Source: Candidatus Heimdallarchaeota archaeon (GTDB lineage Archaea > Asgardarchaeota > Heimdallarchaeia > Hodarchaeales > Hodarchaeaceae). Taken from it: a stretch of 64,000 bases of DNA. A program made the translations under genes and the position numbers. Below are positions 49,269 through 64,000 of the stretch, in pieces (positions within the stretch are counted from its first letter, which is position 1; the number at the start of each line of letters is the position of its first letter). The notes beneath the pieces are model-generated. The model ran no database searches and was not told the origin of the DNA. It saw nothing but the letters and a program-made list of their open reading frames with translations. The DNA lies in NCBI GenBank assembly GCA_011364965.1, contig RDOB01000002.1, positions 124,001 through 188,000 on the forward strand, read 5' to 3'.

Positions 49269-51764
49269 ATGCCTTATCATCGCAAACTATCGTCAGAGGT
49301 GTTTCCTCGAAAATTATTCTGGGAAACTTTTATTGAATTGGACCATTCAGTCGAAAAAAAACTCTTAATCGAAATTTTACAAATATCGAAGAAAAGAAAT
49401 CTCATTTTTGAGGTTTTGGATGAACAAGGTTGGTCGGAATGGAAAGATAACCCAGACAAATTAGTAAAAGGTATTGTTCCACTATTAATTGCATTATTTT
49501 GTGATAGAATAACAATTTCGATTTCTATATTTAAAAAATCCTTTCAATTTGAAGATTTAGTAGCTCAAATGCGAAGAGATATTGGGAGTAGTTCTTCAAA
49601 TAAAAAAATTCTGAGTTTTTTCAATTTAGTGTCCAAGCTTTTGGATCAATCTCCAGAAAATGATTCAGAGTATCCAATAACTTGTCTTTCATATTTTCCT
49701 TTGAATAGAATTCTACATATTCTTTTTGAGTCCGAAGATGAATGTTTACTTGGATTAATTCTAATTCAAGAGTTACTACACCATAGTGATCAACAATACC
49801 TTTTACTTCCCTTTCTATACGAAAATGGGGTTCCCAGTCGATTACAACAGCTTCAAGGACAAGTTTTTACTCCACCAGAAATAACTAATTTTCTAGCAAA
49901 ATTTTCATTATCAAAAGCTGATTTTCGCAAAATAATTGATCCTGCTTGCGGAACGGGACTATTTTTATTAGCAGCTTTGGATTATATTTCTCATTCTCAT
50001 CAGAGGACTTCGTTGAAATATATAATTGGAATTGAGAAAGATCCATACTTAGGATCGATTACAAAAAGTGCTATAAATTACTTTTTATATAAAAATCCAT
50101 CAATGAGCGTTAAGAGTAGTATTATTATACAAGATTTCTTTTGTTTAAATAATGAAGAAGAAAAAAGGCTGAAATCTGATGAAAAGGTTATTTATTATGT
50201 GAATCCTCCCTATACTCGACAAGAGAATATTCCAATGCAATATAAAACCTTGATTCAAACCATTATTCAGAAAGATTTAATTTTTTTTTCTAAGACTGGA
50301 GAAAATGTAAGAAAAGAATTTTCACGACGCTCTGGATTATATGCTTATTTCTTGCTTCATATTGCTGGAAAATTAAAAGAAAATGACTCTATCGGCCTTA
50401 TTATACCCAATTCTTGGCTAGATGTGGACTATGGTCTCTATATTAGACAATTACTTTATAAATACTTTCATATTCATACAATTATTATGACGACAAAGGA
50501 GAAGCTCATTCCAGCAGCTGAAGTTAATACAGTAATTCTATATGTAATTCGAGATTCCAAGAAGTCGATAAAGCAAGTAAACTACTATTTAATAGAGAGA
50601 AAAAGTGATCTAGCATTAATTTCCCTTGGTATGAGGGAAAAGATCCCTTTTCATAAGAAATTTGATCAACATGTATTAGATCCTCCAAAAAAATGGAATG
50701 CAATTTTAAAAGCCCCAAATTGTTATTTGAATCTCTTAAATCTATTAAATGATAAATTAATGCCCCTTAAAAGCATTGCATCTATAAAAAGAGGTTTTAC
50801 AACTGGAGCGAATGATTTTTTTTATCTAGGTAAACCTGGATGTGAAAATAAATATTTTCGATCGGAATGGGATTCTGAAAGTGGGGACCTTCTTCTATAT
50901 CTGAGAGATGATAGAATTCAAGAATTTTATCGTTTGGGATGGACTATAAAGGAGCCCATGTTCAGGATTGAGAAAGAATACTGGATGCATTCATGTAGGA
51001 ATAAATCAAAGGGATTAAAAATAAAATTTGTAGATTCCAAAGAAGTAGAATGGATTCCCAATTATGTAGTTAAATCCCCTAAAGAACTACAAAAGTTTGA
51101 AATCAACGAGTCTGAAATTAACTACGTTGTATTAATTATTTGTCACTCAATTTCAATTGAAAAGGGAGTGCAAGAATATATTCATTGGGGAGAAAAATGG
51201 GTTCCTTCCTCGGGAAGAAAATATCCTCTTAGGCCTACTTGTAAAACGAGAGCGAATTGGTTTTGTTTACCACTCTTAAAAAAAGAATCATTTCCTATTT
51301 TGGGAATGATGACTATCAATGATCGATTTGCATTTTTTTACAACCCCTCGAAATATTATTTTGATGCGAGATTTTATGGCATTCAATTGACAAATTCCCT
51401 TGATGAAATTGCTTTTATTTTTCTTTTCTTGAATTCTATCGTGGCAGCATTTCAATTGGAATTATTGGGAAGGAGTAATTTAGGAGAAGGAGGACTTGAC
51501 ATCAAAGTTTATGAATATGAAGATTTAATGATTCCCAACATTAATTTAATAAATGGAAATGCTGTTTTAATATCAAAAAAGATCTTTAAAGAAACAATCC
51601 ATAAAAGACCCCTTTCGATTCGTGAGGTAGATTTTGAAGATGAATTTATCAAGGTTAATCTTCTATTCAACGTTCAACTAGATCCTGAGGTATTAAAAAA
51701 TTTAAAAACCGAACTAGAAACTTTAGTTCGATTAAGACTAAGCAAAGCAAAATCATTTCAATAA
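49269..51764 (+). CDS. Eco57I-like N6-adenine DNA methyltransferase (831 aa)
   Basis: GQVFTPPEITNFLAKF, motif I IIDPACGTGLFLLAAL, motif IV VNPPY, C-terminal specificity-like GFTTGANDFFYL. Confidence 0.88.
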   Translation: MPYHRKLSSEVFPRKLFWETFIELDHSVEKKLLIEILQISKKRNLIFEVLDEQGWSEWKDNPDKLVKGIVPLLIALFCDRITISISIFKKSFQFEDLVAQMRRDIGSSSSNKKILSFFNLVSKLLDQSPENDSEYPITCLSYFPLNRILHILFESEDECLLGLILIQELLHHSDQQYLLLPFLYENGVPSRLQQLQGQVFTPPEITNFLAKFSLSKADFRKIIDPACGTGLFLLAALDYISHSHQRTSLKYIIGIEKDPYLGSITKSAINYFLYKNPSMSVKSSIIIQDFFCLNNEEEKRLKSDEKVIYYVNPPYTRQENIPMQYKTLIQTIIQKDLIFFSKTGENVRKEFSRRSGLYAYFLLHIAGKLKENDSIGLIIPNSWLDVDYGLYIRQLLYKYFHIHTIIMTTKEKLIPAAEVNTVILYVIRDSKKSIKQVNYYLIERKSDLALISLGMREKIPFHKKFDQHVLDPPKKWNAILKAPNCYLNLLNLLNDKLMPLKSIASIKRGFTTGANDFFYLGKPGCENKYFRSEWDSESGDLLLYLRDDRIQEFYRLGWTIKEPMFRIEKEYWMHSCRNKSKGLKIKFVDSKEVEWIPNYVVKSPKELQKFEINESEINYVVLIICHSISIEKGVQEYIHWGEKWVPSSGRKYPLRPTCKTRANWFCLPLLKKESFPILGMMTINDRFAFFYNPSKYYFDARFYGIQLTNSLDEIAFIFLFLNSIVAAFQLELLGRSNLGEGGLDIKVYEYEDLMIPNINLINGNAVLISKKIFKETIHKRPLSIREVDFEDEFIKVNLLFNVQLDPEVLKNLKTELETLVRLRLSKAKSFQ

Positions 51765-51788
51765 AAGAAATGAAAAGGTTTTGAATTT

Positions 51789-54008
51789 ATGGTAAATATA
51801 AGTGTCGTTGAAAGAAAGCAAAAGGGACAATTTTTCACCAAAACTGAGATTGCAGTAAAAGTTGTAACGGAAATTTGCAATGACTTAATCGGGTATTTAG
51901 ATCAAGGTAATAAGAAAGACTATTCTATGTTTATAAACAAAATATTAAACATTAAGTTAATTGATCCCGCAATGGGTGATGGAGTTTTTCTTGTTGTTGC
52001 TTTAGAATATTTTACGAAAATCATTCAAGATATCTGGGGAGAAATAGTGAAAGATAATAATGTTCGTGCAAAGAATGATTTTAAAGAACGATTCAGGATA
52101 AATGGAATGAATAATGCTTTAACTGAATTAGATCGAGACCTGATTTGTCTTAAAATTCTATCTGAAATGATTTATGGAGTTGAAGTAGATCGTTTTATCT
52201 ATGAAAAAGCTATTCAAAATATTTTAGGTTTGTTTAATGTTCCTGAAGTTATAGAGATGGCAAAAAAACTCGTGAAAATTAAAATTAAACAAGGGAACTC
52301 TCTTATTTCTCCTTTACCATTAGAATTTAAAAAAAGTTTCAAATTTCTTTCTTTATTTAAATCAGAAATTAATTTAATTGTGAAAAATAGAGAAGCAATC
52401 TCTAAATTAATACTTGAAGGTTCTGATGTTTTAATTAAGAGAAAATTTATTGAAAACTCCCAAATTCGTAATTTAGTTATATCTAAGCTTAAAGGAGAAT
52501 TTTCAGATAGTAGTCAACTGCTTTACTTAACTTTGTTAAAGAAAAAAGAACAAATTCCTTTTTTTTGGGAGTTAGAATATCCTGAAGTCTTTTTATCAAA
52601 TAAATTTGGATTTGATGTGGTAATAGGTAATCCCCCTTGGGATAAATGGAAACTTTATGACAGAGAATGGCTAGGTTCGACTGTTCTTTCTTCTCCTGAA
52701 TTAATTAAGGAAACAATCAATGGTGCTCCATCAGAGTCTAAATTAAAATATCTTGAACTAAAAGAGTATTATAAAGAAACCTCAAAATACTTTAATACAT
52801 GCTATAAATGGCAACCTGGGGAAAAAAATCTTTATAAATTATTTCTGGAACGTTTTTATGATCTTACCTCTGAAATGGGTTATTTTGGAATAATTATTCC
52901 GAGTGGAATTCTAGGGGAATATTTTAGTAAATCATTACGAAAAATGCTTTTAGAGAATGTAAAATTAATATCTGTTACAGAAATTGTATCTAATAAGGAA
53001 ATTTTCTCTGAGGTTGAACCAGGGATTAGTATTTCAGTAATACTGGCACAGAAGAATACACCTGATGTTACTTTTCTCTTTTCTAAAGATATTCATTCTT
53101 TAGATGATTTTAAACAAGCTCAAATGCGACTAATAGAAATAAACAATACTAATCATGTTCGAATGAATCGTAATGAAATAATATCTACTTCCCCTCATTA
53201 TATCATTCCATCAATACGTAATAACAAGGAATTAGCAGTCACAAGAAAAATTATTTCATTTCCATCGTTAACGTCTAAAGAATGGAAATGTAAGACATCA
53301 CGTGGTTTAGACATGACCAATGATCGTAATATGTTAACAAAGGATCCAAACGCATATCCTTTGGTTGAAGGCAGACATTTAGTCAGATTGGGGTATGATG
53401 ATAAACACCCTCGTTTTTGGATTCAATCACCTCAAAGATATTTTGAAAAATTCCCTTTTTGGAGAAGAACTTTCATTGGATGGAAAAATTTCTCTGGTAA
53501 TCATAGAAGAAGAAGAATGCGAATAGCTATTTTCCCAAAATCCACTTTCATATCTAATAGCATTTTATGTCTTTATGATTTTCCTGAGCAGGAAGATATT
53601 GAATATTATTTAGCTGGGGTATTATGTTCCGTTCCTTTTGAATTTCGAATTCGACAGATTTGTTATGGATTAAATATCAATCAATTTATAATCAAAAAGA
53701 TGAATATCCCAGCTTATGAAATGAAAAATCCTTTGCACAAAGCACTAGTTAATTTAATCAAAGACTTCGAACCCATTGGGATAAACTGGGCTTATAGAAA
53801 AATGGAGGCCTCCTCCTCTTCCGCAAAATCAGCTCTCGAGAAAGATTATTATCTTTATATAGCCCAAATAGATGCATTGGTTGCTCTAATTTATAATTTA
53901 ACAAAAGAAGAGTTTATTGTTACGCTTCAAGCACATCAAAGGTTAGAATCTTCCTACACAGAAGCAGCAGTGAATTCTTATACAAAATTCTCCCAAAATT
54001 TTAATTGA
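51789..54008 (+). CDS. Eco57I-like N6-adenine DNA methyltransferase (739 aa)
   Basis: KGQFFTKTEIAVKVV, motif I LIDPAMGDGVFLVVAL, motif IV FDVVIGNPPWDKW. Confidence 0.87.
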   Translation: MVNISVVERKQKGQFFTKTEIAVKVVTEICNDLIGYLDQGNKKDYSMFINKILNIKLIDPAMGDGVFLVVALEYFTKIIQDIWGEIVKDNNVRAKNDFKERFRINGMNNALTELDRDLICLKILSEMIYGVEVDRFIYEKAIQNILGLFNVPEVIEMAKKLVKIKIKQGNSLISPLPLEFKKSFKFLSLFKSEINLIVKNREAISKLILEGSDVLIKRKFIENSQIRNLVISKLKGEFSDSSQLLYLTLLKKKEQIPFFWELEYPEVFLSNKFGFDVVIGNPPWDKWKLYDREWLGSTVLSSPELIKETINGAPSESKLKYLELKEYYKETSKYFNTCYKWQPGEKNLYKLFLERFYDLTSEMGYFGIIIPSGILGEYFSKSLRKMLLENVKLISVTEIVSNKEIFSEVEPGISISVILAQKNTPDVTFLFSKDIHSLDDFKQAQMRLIEINNTNHVRMNRNEIISTSPHYIIPSIRNNKELAVTRKIISFPSLTSKEWKCKTSRGLDMTNDRNMLTKDPNAYPLVEGRHLVRLGYDDKHPRFWIQSPQRYFEKFPFWRRTFIGWKNFSGNHRRRRMRIAIFPKSTFISNSILCLYDFPEQEDIEYYLAGVLCSVPFEFRIRQICYGLNINQFIIKKMNIPAYEMKNPLHKALVNLIKDFEPIGINWAYRKMEASSSSAKSALEKDYYLYIAQIDALVALIYNLTKEEFIVTLQAHQRLESSYTEAAVNSYTKFSQNFN

Positions 54009-54033
54009 GAAGTAAAGCGATCAATTGATTTAT

Positions 54034-56661
54034 TTATGCTTGTGAAGATAGAAAATCTTTGATATAAGCGATCTCTAACTCAGTAATTTTAAATAATTCA
54101 TAGATTATTTTATTGATTTTATCAAACTCACCAATAAATTTATTCGAGTTATTGAACATCTTCCTTACTAAATTTACCAAATACGAATAATTCTTTGAAT
54201 TTTTCATCAAAAAAATTGGAAAGTGTTCAATTTGACGTGGATAAAATTCATACACGTTGCCTAAATTTTTAATAGAGTTGAGTGCATAGAAAGTGAGAAG
54301 CTCTGAATTGAGCAATGAAAGCAAATAGTAAAGTATATCTTCCTCAGTTCGATATTCATCTTTGGGAATAAGCCAAATCACATCCTTTGAAGAGAGCGAA
54401 CCTAGTTGATCTAAAGCAAAGGTATTTTTTTTGGATTTATATGGTGAGACGATTTTTGGACGTTCCCAATCCATTGTATTTCTTTCATCACCTTTTCTCC
54501 ACAAAAAATATTTTTGAACCCTCGATCTGTCAAATAACAGCTCTTTATTATTTCTTAGATAATCCATGAGTTTAACATCTTCTAAAATATCCTTTTCTTT
54601 ATAAAAGGGAGCAAAAATCACTTTTCTTTTTTTATATTCAACAAAATAGTTTTTAATGTCTTTACCTTTGATCCATGTTCTCAAATTAGAATCTTTTATT
54701 CCCATCTCATTTGAAAAATAGTCAGGTTTGTTTGTTGTGAAAACTTTGTCACAACCAGTCTCCACTCCTTTACTTATATCAAAAAATTGATTCAGGGTAA
54801 AGTTTGAAGCTTCTCTAATCTTTTTAAGAATTTTAAGAGTCATTTCATTATGAAATATCCATTTTTGTGGTTTTAATGAATTTTGATGTACTTGTAAGAA
54901 AGAATCATAATTCAAATCATTTTTCGGAGTATAGCGAAAAACAGCGATAGAATTTGTTTTCATCTCCTTTTTTTTCAGTATTAATACAATATTACTTATT
55001 TGTACTTCATTGAATAAGGAAATATTCAAAAAATCGTGGATTTCAAGTATTTGAGCAGAATTTTGAATAAATTCTCGTGTTCTAGCTGCATAAACGCTAT
55101 GCAGTAAATATTTTGGCAAAATAAATCCCAATAATCCTCTTAAGGGTTTTAAAGCTTCAATGCTCCTAACCAGAAAAAAGTAGGAAATATCATTATTTCC
55201 TGTGTAGATTTCTGGATATATAAAGCTCAATCTTTTTCTCAATAGTAGAGGAAGATCTGTTAGAGCAATAAAAGGTGGATTTCCGAGAATAATATCAAAT
55301 TTAGGATTTTTTCCAATTTTGAAGTCTATCCAATGAAATAAATTCGTAATTGTTGAAGGTTGTAGATGAGGTTGAAGAATAGATAGCTCATTAGCCTCTC
55401 CCCTAGTCATTGGTGATGAAAAAACAGCATATAGAGTAGTATTTGTTTGAAATGTATTTGAAAACCTTATTTTTGTTAAGGAAATGTCATCTAGTTTTAA
55501 TTTTAATGATGTCCATCTAATACGATCTCCTTCAAAAATAAGATATCGAAATTTAGGAATTTTTCTGAATATTTCTAATAATCCCGAAATTGTATTTTCA
55601 TTATCGAATTCATTATTATTAACATTATTAAAAGTGATTCTATAAACGGGATACTTCAATTCTAAATTCTTATTAAATAAATCATCTCGAGAGCATTCTA
55701 TGTTATCATTTTCTTCTCTCTGGTTTTCATTATTTTGAAATCCAAATAATGAGTTCCCTTTATATATATTGCATCGAAAAGGAGTTTCTTTAGAGTTACT
55801 CGAATCAAAACTCCATAACCATAATTTTAATCTTGAAATAAGAATTGCTACTGTATCTATATCAATACCAAATAAAATATTTTCAACAATCATTTTTTTA
55901 ATCGTTATTTCATCAGTTGGGGTAGAAAAAGATTCAAGCATTTCATTAATTATATTTCCACAGGCAATTAGGAAAATTGAACTTCCAGTAGCTGGATCCA
56001 GTATTTTTAAATTTGAAATTTGCTTTATTATATGTCTATTATCTGAGGAATCCTCTAAGTGAATTCTAGATATCCAAGAATTCACCATTTTTTCCGAAAG
56101 TTTAAGAGCAAACCAATATGGAGTGTAAATTTGGCCAAAACTTTCTATGTCGGTCTTATATGATCTTGAAATGAACTTTACATAATCAAATATAGAAAAA
56201 TCTATTACATTACTTTCTTGATCATATTCTTTAGTATGGTCGTTGATCCAGACGTAATTTTCCTTAAATTCTCTTGCAATGTTTTTCCAATTGATTTTAT
56301 TCAATTTAACTTGATCTACATAATCATAATGGTCAAAAAGATTAAAACAAACCTCTTTTGGTATTATGGAATTTATAAAATTTAAAAAATCCTTTTCTTG
56401 AAACAAAATTTCCTCCCAGGTCGTAATCTCTCTATTTTTCTTATCTATTTTATTTGGATCCAAAAAAAATAATGAGATAAATTGTAAGAGGATTATTTTG
56501 GAATAATCCATTTGTAAATGGCTTGGAATGATAACATCTGCAATATTTTCATATAGATTTTCTAATAGTATGCGAATACTTCTTGGTAGTTGCTTAATGC
56601 CCTTATTTCTGTCCTTAAGACAAAATATTAGCTTTTCCTCCAACCAAGAGAATCTAATCAT
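54034..56661 (-). CDS. Eco57I-like N6-adenine DNA methyltransferase (875 aa)
   Basis: FGQIYTPYWFALKLSEKMV, motif I ILDPATGSSIFLIACG, motif IV FDIILGNPPFIAL, TaqI-type specificity region FFDISKGVETGCDKVFTTN. Confidence 0.88.
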   Translation of the reverse strand: MIRFSWLEEKLIFCLKDRNKGIKQLPRSIRILLENLYENIADVIIPSHLQMDYSKIILLQFISLFFLDPNKIDKKNREITTWEEILFQEKDFLNFINSIIPKEVCFNLFDHYDYVDQVKLNKINWKNIAREFKENYVWINDHTKEYDQESNVIDFSIFDYVKFISRSYKTDIESFGQIYTPYWFALKLSEKMVNSWISRIHLEDSSDNRHIIKQISNLKILDPATGSSIFLIACGNIINEMLESFSTPTDEITIKKMIVENILFGIDIDTVAILISRLKLWLWSFDSSNSKETPFRCNIYKGNSLFGFQNNENQREENDNIECSRDDLFNKNLELKYPVYRITFNNVNNNEFDNENTISGLLEIFRKIPKFRYLIFEGDRIRWTSLKLKLDDISLTKIRFSNTFQTNTTLYAVFSSPMTRGEANELSILQPHLQPSTITNLFHWIDFKIGKNPKFDIILGNPPFIALTDLPLLLRKRLSFIYPEIYTGNNDISYFFLVRSIEALKPLRGLLGFILPKYLLHSVYAARTREFIQNSAQILEIHDFLNISLFNEVQISNIVLILKKKEMKTNSIAVFRYTPKNDLNYDSFLQVHQNSLKPQKWIFHNEMTLKILKKIREASNFTLNQFFDISKGVETGCDKVFTTNKPDYFSNEMGIKDSNLRTWIKGKDIKNYFVEYKKRKVIFAPFYKEKDILEDVKLMDYLRNNKELLFDRSRVQKYFLWRKGDERNTMDWERPKIVSPYKSKKNTFALDQLGSLSSKDVIWLIPKDEYRTEEDILYYLLSLLNSELLTFYALNSIKNLGNVYEFYPRQIEHFPIFLMKNSKNYSYLVNLVRKMFNNSNKFIGEFDKINKIIYELFKITELEIAYIKDFLSSQA

Positions 56662-58023: not shown

Positions 58024-61000
58024 ATGGCATCCTCACAAAGAAGAAACGAAACATTTTTAGGTTATAGATCGTGGTTTGATGCGTTTCGATTTAATGAAAG
58101 AATCTCCCTTCCAATTTTTATTCTTGATTATCAAACATCAAGTTTTTGGAAGGAAAATGAGGAGACAATTAATGAGTATGAAACTGATCAAAATCACTCG
58201 CGATCCATGCTAATAAATGGTATACAAATTTTCTTCCTTGATGAAAATCATCAAAAACGTAAAGCATTTTTACGTCATGAACCTTACTTTTATCTCTTAC
58301 TTGAAAAAGACCTTTCAAAGGAACATCTCAATCGAATCATTTCACAAATCTATCAAATAGGAGAAAATCACGTTCAACAAATAGAGGAGAAGAATTACTA
58401 CGATGCTGCTGATCTTACATTCCTTGTTTCCAAGTCATTTCTAAAGATCACCGTTGATCATCCCGGTTCTGTTCCTAAATTACGAGATAAATGTGAAGCA
58501 TTAAATGGAGTAATCGAATGGCGAGAAGCAGATGTATTATTTCATCATAGAACTGCAATAGACCATAATTTACGCGTAGGATATTGGTATCAAGCTGAAA
58601 TCCGAGGTGGAGAAATTCAATCTATTTATCATATAAATAATAAAGCACCACCTCAATTAAAAATACTAGCATTCGATATAGAAACTGCTTTTGAAACAAC
58701 AAGAGAACCTAATCCGAACCGCGATGAAATATCAATGATTTCATTATTTACTGGAGATAGGAACTATCTTCTAGTAAATTCGTCTGTGGTTGAAACCAAG
58801 GATATCAGAAATATTGATATACTCCTAAGGTACGCTGATAAAGAACATAAGAAGCCTTGGGTGGATTGGCGATATTCAAATGATACTTTTGAAGCGCCTG
58901 AACATATTGAAAAGTATTATTTTAATATCCAGCTCTTTGATAACGAGCGAGAAATTTTACAGGCATTTTATCAAGTGATCAGAGACTATCAACCTGATGT
59001 TCTTGCTGATTTTTTTGGGGGAAGATTTGATATCCCTTTTCTTTCTGTGAGGTCAGAGCTTAACAATTTGTCTTTGGAAAGGGAAACTGGATTTAAGATT
59101 GTTTTTAAAATAGGTACCGGTAAAAGATCAAACGAAAAGACTGATTTGAAGAACAATTATACTCCTAATAGCATAGATTATGTTGAAGGAGCAGGAATTA
59201 TACATCTAGATGCCTTCCTATTTAATGAGAAATACAGTTACCTTCCCAAGAAGGATTTAGGTTTAAAACAGAGTGTTGAGAAAAAACTCAAAATTATTCC
59301 AATAGGTAGAGAAGCATTATTTGCTATCGAAGAAAATCCTGCCGAAGCTGCTGCATATGCGGGATGTGATGGATATATTTCGTGGAAATATGTTAAGGAA
59401 ATTGTCCTTGATTTTTTCATCTCTATGGGACAGATGTTTCCCGTTCCTGCTTCAGAGTTGTTATCCCGAAGATCAGGCTCTTTGGATGACTTATTGATCG
59501 ATGCAGAAAATTTCCAGCATGGAATTGTCAGTAAAAGAAAAATCTCTTCCAAAATAATTGAATCTTTTTCGCCTAAACTTGTGATAAACAATCTTGCTTA
59601 TACAGGTGGACTAGTTGAAGCTAGACGTCCTGGAATTTTCAGAAGTGATATTTTCTATGATTTTAAATCAGAGAAAGAAGCTTTAGATGAATTAAAGATT
59701 GCAATTGAAAAAGTAATACGAAAAGAAAGTATGGAATTAAATAAAAAGATTATAAAGGAGGAATTTGAGAAACAAGTCCTCTCTGAGCTTGGAGATGTGG
59801 TTATTGAGTATTCAGAAGATCCTTCTGAGATCTTATCACAAATTGAATCTGGAATGGTAAGAAATGGTGTTCCAAGAGCGAAATTAAAGATCCAGTTGAA
59901 TAAAATTCGGGATATATTAGAAAATATATCTGCATATCACCCTGAAGATGTGGAAAATATTATAGATGAGGTATTTCAAGCACTAGACAAATTAAAGCTT
60001 TCTAATGACAAAACAAAGTTAATTGGAGTTCATGTTGACGTTACAAGTATGTACCCATCTCAAATTCGTCAATATAAACTTCAACCTTCAGGAATTGTAC
60101 CTTTAACGAAATGCCAAACATGTGATTTATACGAAAAGGATGAAAGTTGCCTTTTTGACGGAGATTGGGTTATAAAAATTTCATCACAGCGTCCTTGTCG
60201 ATTTAAGGTGGAAGGTTCTAGTAAATGTGATCCCTCAGTTTGCAAAGCGGAGAATGAACTAAAATGTAAAAGGTATCAACCTTTGCAAGATTCACTTGGA
60301 CGATCTCAAGAGATTTATACCTTTAATGGAGAAAAAACAGAAGCTTATACCAGAAGAGGTGACCAATTAATACAAGTTCCAATAAGTGAAACCTATTTGG
60401 GTTTAACAACTGAACATGATCTTTTCATTTCTGTTCAACAGTGGTTACGAAGAAATGTAGAGGCAACTCAATTAACAACTAAATTGGACAAGAACTATTT
60501 TGATATATTTGAAGATCAACCTCCTGATTTTGAACTTCCTCCCAATACGTTCATGAGTATTGATACTAGAACGAAAAAAATTAGTATATTGTTATCTGTA
60601 AATTCTCGGGTGTGCCAAAAAGCATATAATTTTGTTGCCAGAATTATGGATGATTTTTTCAATACAAGGGTAAAGCATAAGTTAGAGGCCCAAAGACTTA
60701 AACAGGTTATTTCTCAAAGGAAATCTGCAAATTTAGCTATTCCTTCTGAATTAACTAGACTTCAAAAATTCCATGATAGCACACAATTAGGAATGAAAGT
60801 TCCTTTAAATAGTATATACGGACTTTTAGGTATGAAGGGAGGTGTAAGAAATGCTAGTACGCCCTGCGCTGGAATTACAACAAAATTGTCAGCAGATTTA
60901 ATCCATTGGGCTGCAGAAGAGCTAGAGTACGTTGGTTTAGTTACAGAATTAGATACTGATGGTATCTGGTTATGGGTACCCCAAGATTTTCCGCTTTTCT

Positions 61001-62427
61001 TTAAAGTTTGCCTTTCCAATCCTAATGTTAAGAACAGTAAGAAGCAATTTGAAGTAAGTCTAATCGACAAAATTCTCAACGAAAAGGTCAAGAAATTTTC
61101 TCAGAACGATAATTATTGGGTAAATGACGGGCATTGTATTAGTCGATCGCGAAAGAACTTAATTAAATTTGAACAAGACGGCCCCTATGATTTTCAGTTT
61201 GTCATGGGAAAAAAGAAATATATAATTTATAATTATGAAAATAATGAATGGCAAGAAAAAGAGATAACTGGATTAGAATCAAAAAGAGCAGACTTTTCAA
61301 AATTACAGAAATATTTTCAAGAAAAGATCATCAATAGCTATCTAGAGGACTATGATCCGCAAAATCCCATTACTTTAGAAGAGCTTTATCAAAATGCAGA
61401 TAAAATGGCTCAGAAAATAAAAGAAGAAATTTATAGCGGAACTATTGATCCTAGTTATTTCGTAAAACCAAAAGCTATCAACAAACCTTTAAGTGCTTAC
61501 AAATCCAAACTTCCCCAAGTGAACGCAGCTTATATCCTTCGAGACCTTGGTTTTTCTGTGGATCCAGGTACAAGGATCCAGATGTTAAATTTAAAAGGTA
61601 ATCATGTAATCCCTCGACAAGTTTTTGATTTTGATTTCAAGAAAATAAAGGAAGTTCTTGTTAAGCATGCAATTGCTACATTGAGTTTCATGCTGGGAGA
61701 ACTATCGACAAAAGAGGACCTAATGAAATTAATTGATGTGAATCAGTACTCAGAAGATCTTTTTGGTCCCGGAAGAATTTATGATAGAATGATAAAATAT
61801 CCAATGGAAATTCAACAAGTTTCGAGTAGTGCACAAACAACTTTGAATCTAAAATCGAAAATCAGAAGTAAGAAGACTGAGACTGATAGTAATTTTGAAG
61901 ATGAAGGCCCCATTACTGATGAGAAAGAAAATTTAAAAAATGAAAAAGCATTACCACATCTTAAACCAAAACCGAGACAAAAAAGAGGGATTCGCAGAAA
62001 GAAAAAGAGGCAGAGGAATGAAGCTCAGCCTATTGCACTTGATGCTTTACTTGAACCTTCACAATCAGTTAATAAGGGAAATAAAATTGAAATCAAAGAG
62101 AATGAGTATATAACAAGAGAAACCGAGGCCAAAAAAGTAATCCAAATAAGGGGCTCCTCCGATAAAGTAGAATCTGAAGTTTTTAGAGAAAATTCCCAGA
62201 ATAAATCTCTAAGTAAAGATGCTTTGGTTTCCACTGATGAAATTTCTGAGTTAGAATCAGATGAGATTTTTAATAATGGATCTGGCAATGGTAAGAGTGC
62301 AAAAAGTCTAGAGTTAGGAACGTTGGAGGAAGAGCTAATTGTCTGCTCGGAATGTGGGGCGTTAGTAAGCCCGCGAGAAATTACTAATGAAGGGTGTATT
62401 TTCTGTGGAGGAGAATCTTTAATCTAA
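58024..62427 (+). CDS. B-family DNA polymerase, Pol epsilon-like, with 3'-5' exonuclease and C-terminal zinc ribbon
   Basis: Exo I [9 protein letters not shown], Exo II [26 protein letters not shown], Exo III YAGCDGY; motif A [23 protein letters not shown]; motif B [25 protein letters not shown]; motif C [10 protein letters not shown]; C-terminal CSECG...CIFCG. Confidence 0.96.
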   Translation: [1467 protein letters not shown]

Positions 62428-62660: not shown

Positions 62661-64000
62661 ATGGAAAATATAGCTAATTTACAATCAATTGGATCACTTG
62701 AAAATTTTGCCTTAAATAAAACTGAACAATTTTTAAAACCCCGAACACCTTTAGATTTTCTATTTTTAGTATTATGCATATTATGGTGGATAATTGCAGT
62801 TGTTTTTCCAAGTACCCCAATTTTTCGAGGTACAATATTTAGTTTTGCTATTGTTGTGTTTTTCCTGATCCCTATATACATTCTTTTTAATAAAGAAGGG
62901 CATACCATGGCTTCTCCCCTGAACCGTGCCTTCAAACTTCTATTATTTTATCTATTGATTAATTTCTTTATTCCCTCTTCTAATATTCCCAATTTTCTTC
63001 CTCCAAGTATTCCGATAACGTATGGTGAGATAGAAAGGACAATTGTATGTCTATTAATACCTCTCACTATGTTAATAAAAGCCTTTGCCCTGGATACTCT
63101 GCGAATTGGATATTTATTTTACATTCAAAGCATTATACGAGGTTTCTGGACTGCATTTATTATTTTGTTCATTATGAAGGGGATTCAACTCTTTATTCCT
63201 ACTCCTCTAATAAATTTCGATTTTGATCTCTTTCTGCTACTAGCTTTTGGATTATATTTATTTGGATCAGTGTTACCAGGAGTACCAAAACAAATATCTT
63301 TTGATGCTAGTTCATTCATTAACCAGTATCAGGCGTTACAAACAAGAATGGAAAGAATTCGTGACGCATTACTTACATCAGCAATTACTTTGTTAATTTT
63401 CTTGTGGTTACAATGGATTAATTTATCAAATCGGGAATTATTTCAATATATCGCTTTTATTTGTTTAGTTATGGGTATTTTATTAATATTTGCACCCAAA
63501 AAGAAAACACAGAATGGATTAAATTCACTCTTAAGTTCTCTTTCCCAAAAGGGAAATTTTATTGATCCAAAAAGTCAGCTTGGTTCCAAGGTACAAGAAT
63601 ATGCAAAAAGCATACAAGCAGTAGAATTTAATAAACCAAATCAAGTATATTCGATCCCTTCTGAATCCCTTAAGTTAATAAGTAAAGGTAAAACCTCAAT
63701 TAGCGCTAATAAAGGTACTTTAGCTGTTCCAACTGTAACAGATAAGGGAACAGCTCTGGTACTAATGGGAAAATCAGAAATGACAACTGAAGAAGGTGAA
63801 AAGGTGCTTGGAGAAACAACAACAATATGGCTTCCACCAGAGGAATGGGATAGAGTAAAAGTAAACTTACAGCCCAAAAAGATGGAAGAAATTCTTCAAA
63901 CTGACCTTAAAGAAGCTGGTCTTGAGAATTTTAATGATTTAGTCAATAAATCCAAACACGCTTTAGAGGAGTTAAAATCCTGGAAAGGGCCCGAAAATAT
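62661..64000 (+). CDS. Multi-pass membrane protein with C-terminal soluble domain, truncated by the right edge
   Basis: Frame from ATG 62661 (MENIANLQSIGSLENFALNKTEQFLKPRTPLDFLFLVLCILWWIIAVVF...) stays open to the window end. Absent from the ORF track, which lists only antisense ORFs here. Confidence 0.8.
   Translation, partial: MENIANLQSIGSLENFALNKTEQFLKPRTPLDFLFLVLCILWWIIAVVFPSTPIFRGTIFSFAIVVFFLIPIYILFNKEGHTMASPLNRAFKLLLFYLLINFFIPSSNIPNFLPPSIPITYGEIERTIVCLLIPLTMLIKAFALDTLRIGYLFYIQSIIRGFWTAFIILFIMKGIQLFIPTPLINFDFDLFLLLAFGLYLFGSVLPGVPKQISFDASSFINQYQALQTRMERIRDALLTSAITLLIFLWLQWINLSNRELFQYIAFICLVMGILLIFAPKKKTQNGLNSLLSSLSQKGNFIDPKSQLGSKVQEYAKSIQAVEFNKPNQVYSIPSESLKLISKGKTSISANKGTLAVPTVTDKGTALVLMGKSEMTTEEGEKVLGETTTIWLPPEEWDRVKVNLQPKKMEEILQTDLKEAGLENFNDLVNKSKHALEELKSWKGPEN

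Follow-up and report, generated by a model that had tools for sequence, protein, structure and literature searches.

Members of the archaeal order Hodarchaeales encode a family B DNA polymerase (PolB) that, judged by its sequence, is an archaeal sister to the catalytic N-terminal half of eukaryotic DNA polymerase epsilon (Pol epsilon), which copies one strand of eukaryotic chromosomes. Its gene was studied in a 64,000-nucleotide stretch of Candidatus Heimdallarchaeota DNA, the whole of which we call the window. Assignment to polymerase group B10 rests on the published traits of that group and on a phylogenetic tree. We consider it probable that this enzyme is a proofreading replicase that has supplanted PolD in chromosomal synthesis, and that PolD persists as a scaffold without catalytic function.

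The gene and its relation to Pol epsilon

The open reading frame (ORF) starts with ATG and is intron-free and uninterrupted, and its Pfam matches comprise one exonuclease and one family B polymerase domain (Table 1). An earlier note, made from the sequence alone, had reported a Pol epsilon signature here, and the ORF and motif strings that it quoted are real: HVDVTSMYP at residues 670-678 (motif A), KVPLNSIYG at 925-933 (motif B segment), ELDTDG (motif C) and a string at residues 528-543. Alignment with yeast Pol2 extends over motifs A, B and C, the acidic residues of the exonuclease and the stretch GG.VEA..G.FRSD. Motif C has its Glu, as ELDTDG, in all ten aligned family members, and the catalytic residues are invariant among them. 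The three exonuclease motifs claimed in the note hold for the acidic residues D218/E220, D336 and D449, but Exo II (FFGGRFD) lacks the Asn of yeast FNGDFFD, while retaining the catalytic Asp.

All PDB chains were searched with phmmer. The best 22 matches are all Pol epsilon (1.3e-58 to 3e-53), behind which come archaeal PolB (3e-17) and Pol delta (7e-6). A profile built from ten family members separates epsilon (7e-92) from archaeal PolB (3e-29) by a wider gap than the single sequence does, so that the signature stands far above chance. Identity to yeast Pol2 is 29% over 744 columns, vs 18-22% to Pol3, Pol1 and the other two PolBs of the same genome; the yeast sequences were taken from PDB or matched to it letter for letter.

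A maximum-likelihood tree was built from 353 columns of the palm region; alongside the family it includes Asgard PolBs and the yeast polymerases Pol1, Pol2 and Pol3. It joins the epsilon-type family to yeast Pol2 with support of 99.9/100, to the exclusion of Pol delta, Pol alpha and the Asgard PolBs, and the B10 family is itself monophyletic (98.5/99). The polymerase thus falls neither within PolB3, a placement that would have spoken against the note's reading, nor among other Asgard PolBs, and it does not have the YGDTDS motif C of archaeal PolB3 and PolB1. A second tree, with the exonuclease region added and Pol3 and Pol1 omitted, agrees with the first, as do published trees (PMC7544198, PMC12198294). 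Yeast Pol2 is the one eukaryotic epsilon sequence in our tree, which holds no bacterial G3 and no viral sequences; given this sampling, long-branch effects may contribute to the grouping and the exact sister group may be another.

Table 1. Features of the epsilon-type polymerase gene in window coordinates
Feature	Position	Strand	Evidence
Pol epsilon-type (group B10) family B DNA polymerase, 1467 aa	58024..62427	+	ORF, PDB matches, tree
3'-5' exonuclease domain (Pfam DNA_pol_B_exo1, residues 167-412)	58522..59259	+	E 8.7e-24
Exo I, DIET (D218, E220)	58675..58686	+	alignment with yeast Pol2
Exo II, FDIPF (D336)	59026..59040	+	alignment with yeast Pol2
Exo III, YAGCD (Y445, D449)	59356..59370	+	alignment with yeast Pol2
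Start of Pol2-specific peripheral region (POPS), matching yeast GGHVESLEAGVFRSDL...DPSAIDELLQ	59605..59697	+	
Motif A (catalytic D672; SMYP as in Pol2)	60031..60057	+	
CysX cysteines 1-3 (C697, C700, C709)	60112..60150	+	
P-domain-like insertion between CysX cysteines 3 and 4 (residues 710-863)	60151..60612	+	
Extra C4 cluster (C725, C735, C740, C748)	60196..60267	+	family-invariant, absent from yeast Pol2
CysX cysteine 4 (C864, in SRVCQK; yeast AIVCQR)	60613..60615	+	
Motif B	60796..60822	+	
Motif C ELDTDG (D977, D979; residues 975-980)	60946..60963	+	
KxY region KKKYIIY	61210..61230	+	
Basic patch RRKKKRQR then short conserved motif IALDALLEP	61993..62058	+	in poorly conserved linker
C-terminal C4 metal-binding motif (C1441, C1444, C1458, C1461)	62344..62406	+	

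The enzyme shares with the N-terminal half of yeast Pol2 motifs A, B and C, SMYP, the exonuclease residues, CysX, an insertion of P-domain size and the start of POPS, a region described in PMC7228970. It differs in lacking the inactive C-terminal polymerase half, in its longer insertions and in the extra cysteine cluster. No second PolB-exonuclease module was found at the C-terminus, where the ORF ends with a linker and the C4 motif. This single motif, in place of paired CysA and CysB, is also present in most relatives and is what has been reported for group B10 (PMC7544198). No canonical clamp-binding motif was found in the polymerase; the linker motif is weakly SLDxLF-like, its counterparts in other family members read SLDTIF and SLESLF, and it is possibly a clamp-binding element.

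CysX cysteines and the insertion at the P-domain site

CysX and the P-domain have been described as exclusive to Pol epsilon (PMC7544198, PMC9581978). The four cysteines C697, C700, C709 and C864 align with the CysX cysteines of Pol2, are invariant in the ten members and are predicted to bind a [4Fe-4S] cluster. Between the third and fourth lies an insertion of 154 residues, and none comparable was seen at this site in the other Asgard PolBs compared. The insertion contains the second four-cysteine set, which is likewise invariant in the family and missing in yeast Pol2.

The note had made a P-domain a condition of its reading, and the site is indeed not empty. A model of residues 640-1130 (491 aa, palm and P-domain; pLDDT 76.9, pTM 0.75) was compared with known structures using Foldseek: the first 36 matches are all Pol epsilon, with TM 0.54-0.61 over about 500 columns, vs 0.42 or less for other PolBs. 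The rmsd of the superpositions is high (8-13 A in most), the model is disordered at its residues 84-119 (pLDDT below 50) and the stretch with the extra cysteines is poorly modelled. A P-domain fold is therefore supported by the model, short of proof. An AlphaFold2 model of 1200 aa was too poor (pLDDT 57, pTM 0.35) and was set aside in favour of the 491-aa model.

The notion that a metal site at the CysX position is unique to epsilon had to be softened. Asgard PolB1-type genes (L001, L108, L116, L119 and others) have a conserved C-x2-H-x2/3-C...WVC set just past motif A, at the CysX position and without a P-domain, which may be a short metal site.

The note was right that the class might already be known (PMC7544198, PMC10307638). 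The B10 polymerases described from LC3 and B3 (Kazlauskas 2020, PMC7544198) likewise have the motif C Glu, one C-terminal C4 motif, a place adjoining the catalytic half of Pol epsilon, a Heimdallarchaeal host and PolD partner subunits whose activity was reported to be incomplete. They were known from two genomes, and P-domain and CysX were there called absent from other PolBs, whereas here CysX cysteines and a P-domain-like insertion run through the whole family. The note's remark that this copy keeps unusually many features is accordingly true of the entire family and not peculiar to this copy. A family-wide CysX set, P-domain-like insertion and extra cysteine cluster seem not to have been described in the literature that we searched, coverage of which was incomplete.

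Distribution and gene neighbourhood

The polymerase gene lies in a genome of 2.97 Mb in 16 contigs, from a relative of Hodarchaeum (Heimdallarchaeia). Its closest named locus is in Ca. Hodarchaeum mangrovi (59%). Homologues are present in 10 of the 11 other genomes of the genus, the exception being a 1.4-Mb assembly, and in the two searched genomes from elsewhere in the order. Among 232 Asgard genomes searched by profile, 13 have the polymerase, all Hodarchaeales (13 of 14 Hodarchaeales, 0 of 218 others); a Lokiarchaeum homologue mentioned in PMC12395588 was not seen among the Asgard genomes searched. Eme 2023 (PMC10307638) agrees, placing epsilon only in Hodarchaeales. The order there and in PMC12198294 is the same and, judged by distribution, so is the gene; both papers, as far as their accessible text goes, treat presence and phylogeny, without the anatomy of the enzyme or the state of PolD.

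Since the solved structure that the polymerase matches best is that of a eukaryotic enzyme, eukaryotic contamination of the metagenome bin had to be considered. It is barely credible, given the low identity to yeast Pol2, the intron-free ORF and, above all, a gene neighbourhood shared with 9 further Hodarchaeales genomes, contigs of 4.9 and 3.2 Mb included, which rules this reading out. With a further contig of 646 kb, these long contigs and their conserved neighbours show the locus to be chromosomal and not an obvious mobile element.

Within that neighbourhood, three large N6-methyltransferase genes resembling Eco57I and TaqI lie upstream of the polymerase (49269-56661 of the window), with related genes at the same place in relatives. 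Downstream on the same strand is a conserved gene of about 750 aa (62661-63998, continued in L097:11662-13917), for which no family or PDB match was found. It was set aside as a candidate partner subunit on that ground and on its membrane-protein-like sequence.

The polymerase gene may have entered Hodarchaeales from a stem eukaryote or by way of a mobile element, in which case the order's gene would be neither the donor nor the ancestor of Pol epsilon (the view of Forterre, PMC12395588); we regard this as possible, if somewhat doubtful. The gene's confinement to one Asgard order and its strong divergence from other Asgard PolBs point that way, as do in-frame inserts of about 440-530 codons in two genomes, at motif B in one (L015, G010) and within motif C in the other (L014, G011), which are apparently inteins and would record visits by mobile elements. 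Against it, the family forms a well-supported clade outside the single eukaryotic epsilon sequence, yeast and human epsilon are about equally far from it by score, and searches of IMG/VR contigs and phages turned up nothing close, plasmids yielding only a weak partial match. This opposing evidence may still be compatible with transfer from an extinct stem lineage. Acquisition is also compatible with a replicase role, and the gene may have passed in either direction between Hodarchaeales and the stem of the eukaryotes.

PolD in Hodarchaeales and the proposed exchange of replicases

The catalytic triad of the large PolD subunit DP2 is N954, D956 and D958 (PMC10721889). D956 is replaced in all 11 aligned Hodarchaeales sequences (for example NCSGNID in the genome of the window, and NCNGDID and SCNGATD elsewhere), vs an intact N[AC]DGDED motif in 4 of 4 aligned relatives. 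At the DNA level, 19 of 44 other Heimdallarchaeia yielded an intact motif, as against 0 of 14 Hodarchaeales; DP2 genes with inteins or variants are missed in these counts, so that firm evidence is confined to the aligned sequences. Scores of the DP2 N-terminal domain are 120-157 bits within the genus and 30-37 for the order's other family, vs 328-382 for those remaining Heimdallarchaeia that gave a match. A C-terminal clamp-binding-like stretch seen in DP2 of some relatives is missing from Hodarchaeales DP2. Between species pairs the dN/dS of DP2 is mostly about 0.1, which indicates that DP2 is under purifying selection and not a decaying pseudogene. The loci concerned (G000:C13:10970-14293, L067:2971-6294; and L068-L077) have a broken triad in an otherwise conserved sequence.

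The small subunit DP1 is retained in most Hodarchaeales genomes and in most of them keeps most metal ligands. Its PGNHD motif has become PGEHD or PGERD in 10 of 10 sequences, replacing metal ligand N450 by Glu, and in the genome of the window the essential H451 is Arg. Inactive or missing PolD parts were already noted for LC3 and B3 (Kazlauskas 2020, PMC7544198); from these sequences, inactivation appears to extend to the order Hodarchaeales, in the genomes checked. That the DP2 active site is lost throughout the order while the subunit stays under purifying selection seems to be undescribed in the literature searched, again with incomplete coverage. A partial parallel is the B6-aenigma PolB that replaces DP2 in Aenigmarchaeota (PMC7544198), where a PolB with a C-terminal metal motif likewise accompanies loss of PolD catalysis; it belongs to another PolB group, and DP2 is mostly absent there, whereas in Hodarchaeales it is kept with a broken active site.

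That PolD has lost its active site while DP2 remains under purifying selection suggests that the epsilon-type enzyme probably replaced it as replicase. Polymerization would proceed by a two-metal site of D672 and D977/D979, and proofreading by a DnaQ-type 3'-5' exonuclease. By analogy with Pol2, the P-domain, anchored by the [4Fe-4S] cluster, would close on the duplex and confer processivity. Most simply, replicases would have been exchanged: an epsilon-type enzyme with its own proofreading would have replaced PolD, which lost catalysis yet kept a structural role.

Two further PolBs occur in the genome, with similar ones in relatives and YGDTDS motifs intact, and one of these (L001 or L002) could instead be the main replicase that succeeded PolD, leaving the epsilon-type enzyme to repair or auxiliary synthesis. 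We judge this unlikely: PolBs of both kinds also occur in other Heimdallarchaeia with high-scoring PolD and do not track PolD loss, whereas the epsilon-type gene does, and the latter has the parts tied to processivity in Pol epsilon. Replacement of PolD by the epsilon-type enzyme is made directly testable by the coincidence of that enzyme with a broken PolD.

More tentatively, and with slightly less than even confidence, we suggest that the entire order Hodarchaeales replicates with an epsilon-type enzyme bearing an Fe-S-anchored P-domain, PolD being a dead but conserved scaffold. If so, the switch from PolD to epsilon would have an archaeal precedent, as would a catalytically dead polymerase serving as replisome scaffold, comparable to Pol2 in its C-terminal half. 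Hodarchaeales have been proposed, among other groups, as sister to eukaryotes. If their main replicase is already epsilon-like, down to parts regarded as eukaryotic inventions, an archaeal protein amenable to laboratory production would open to study a key stage in how the replication fork of eukaryotes arose.
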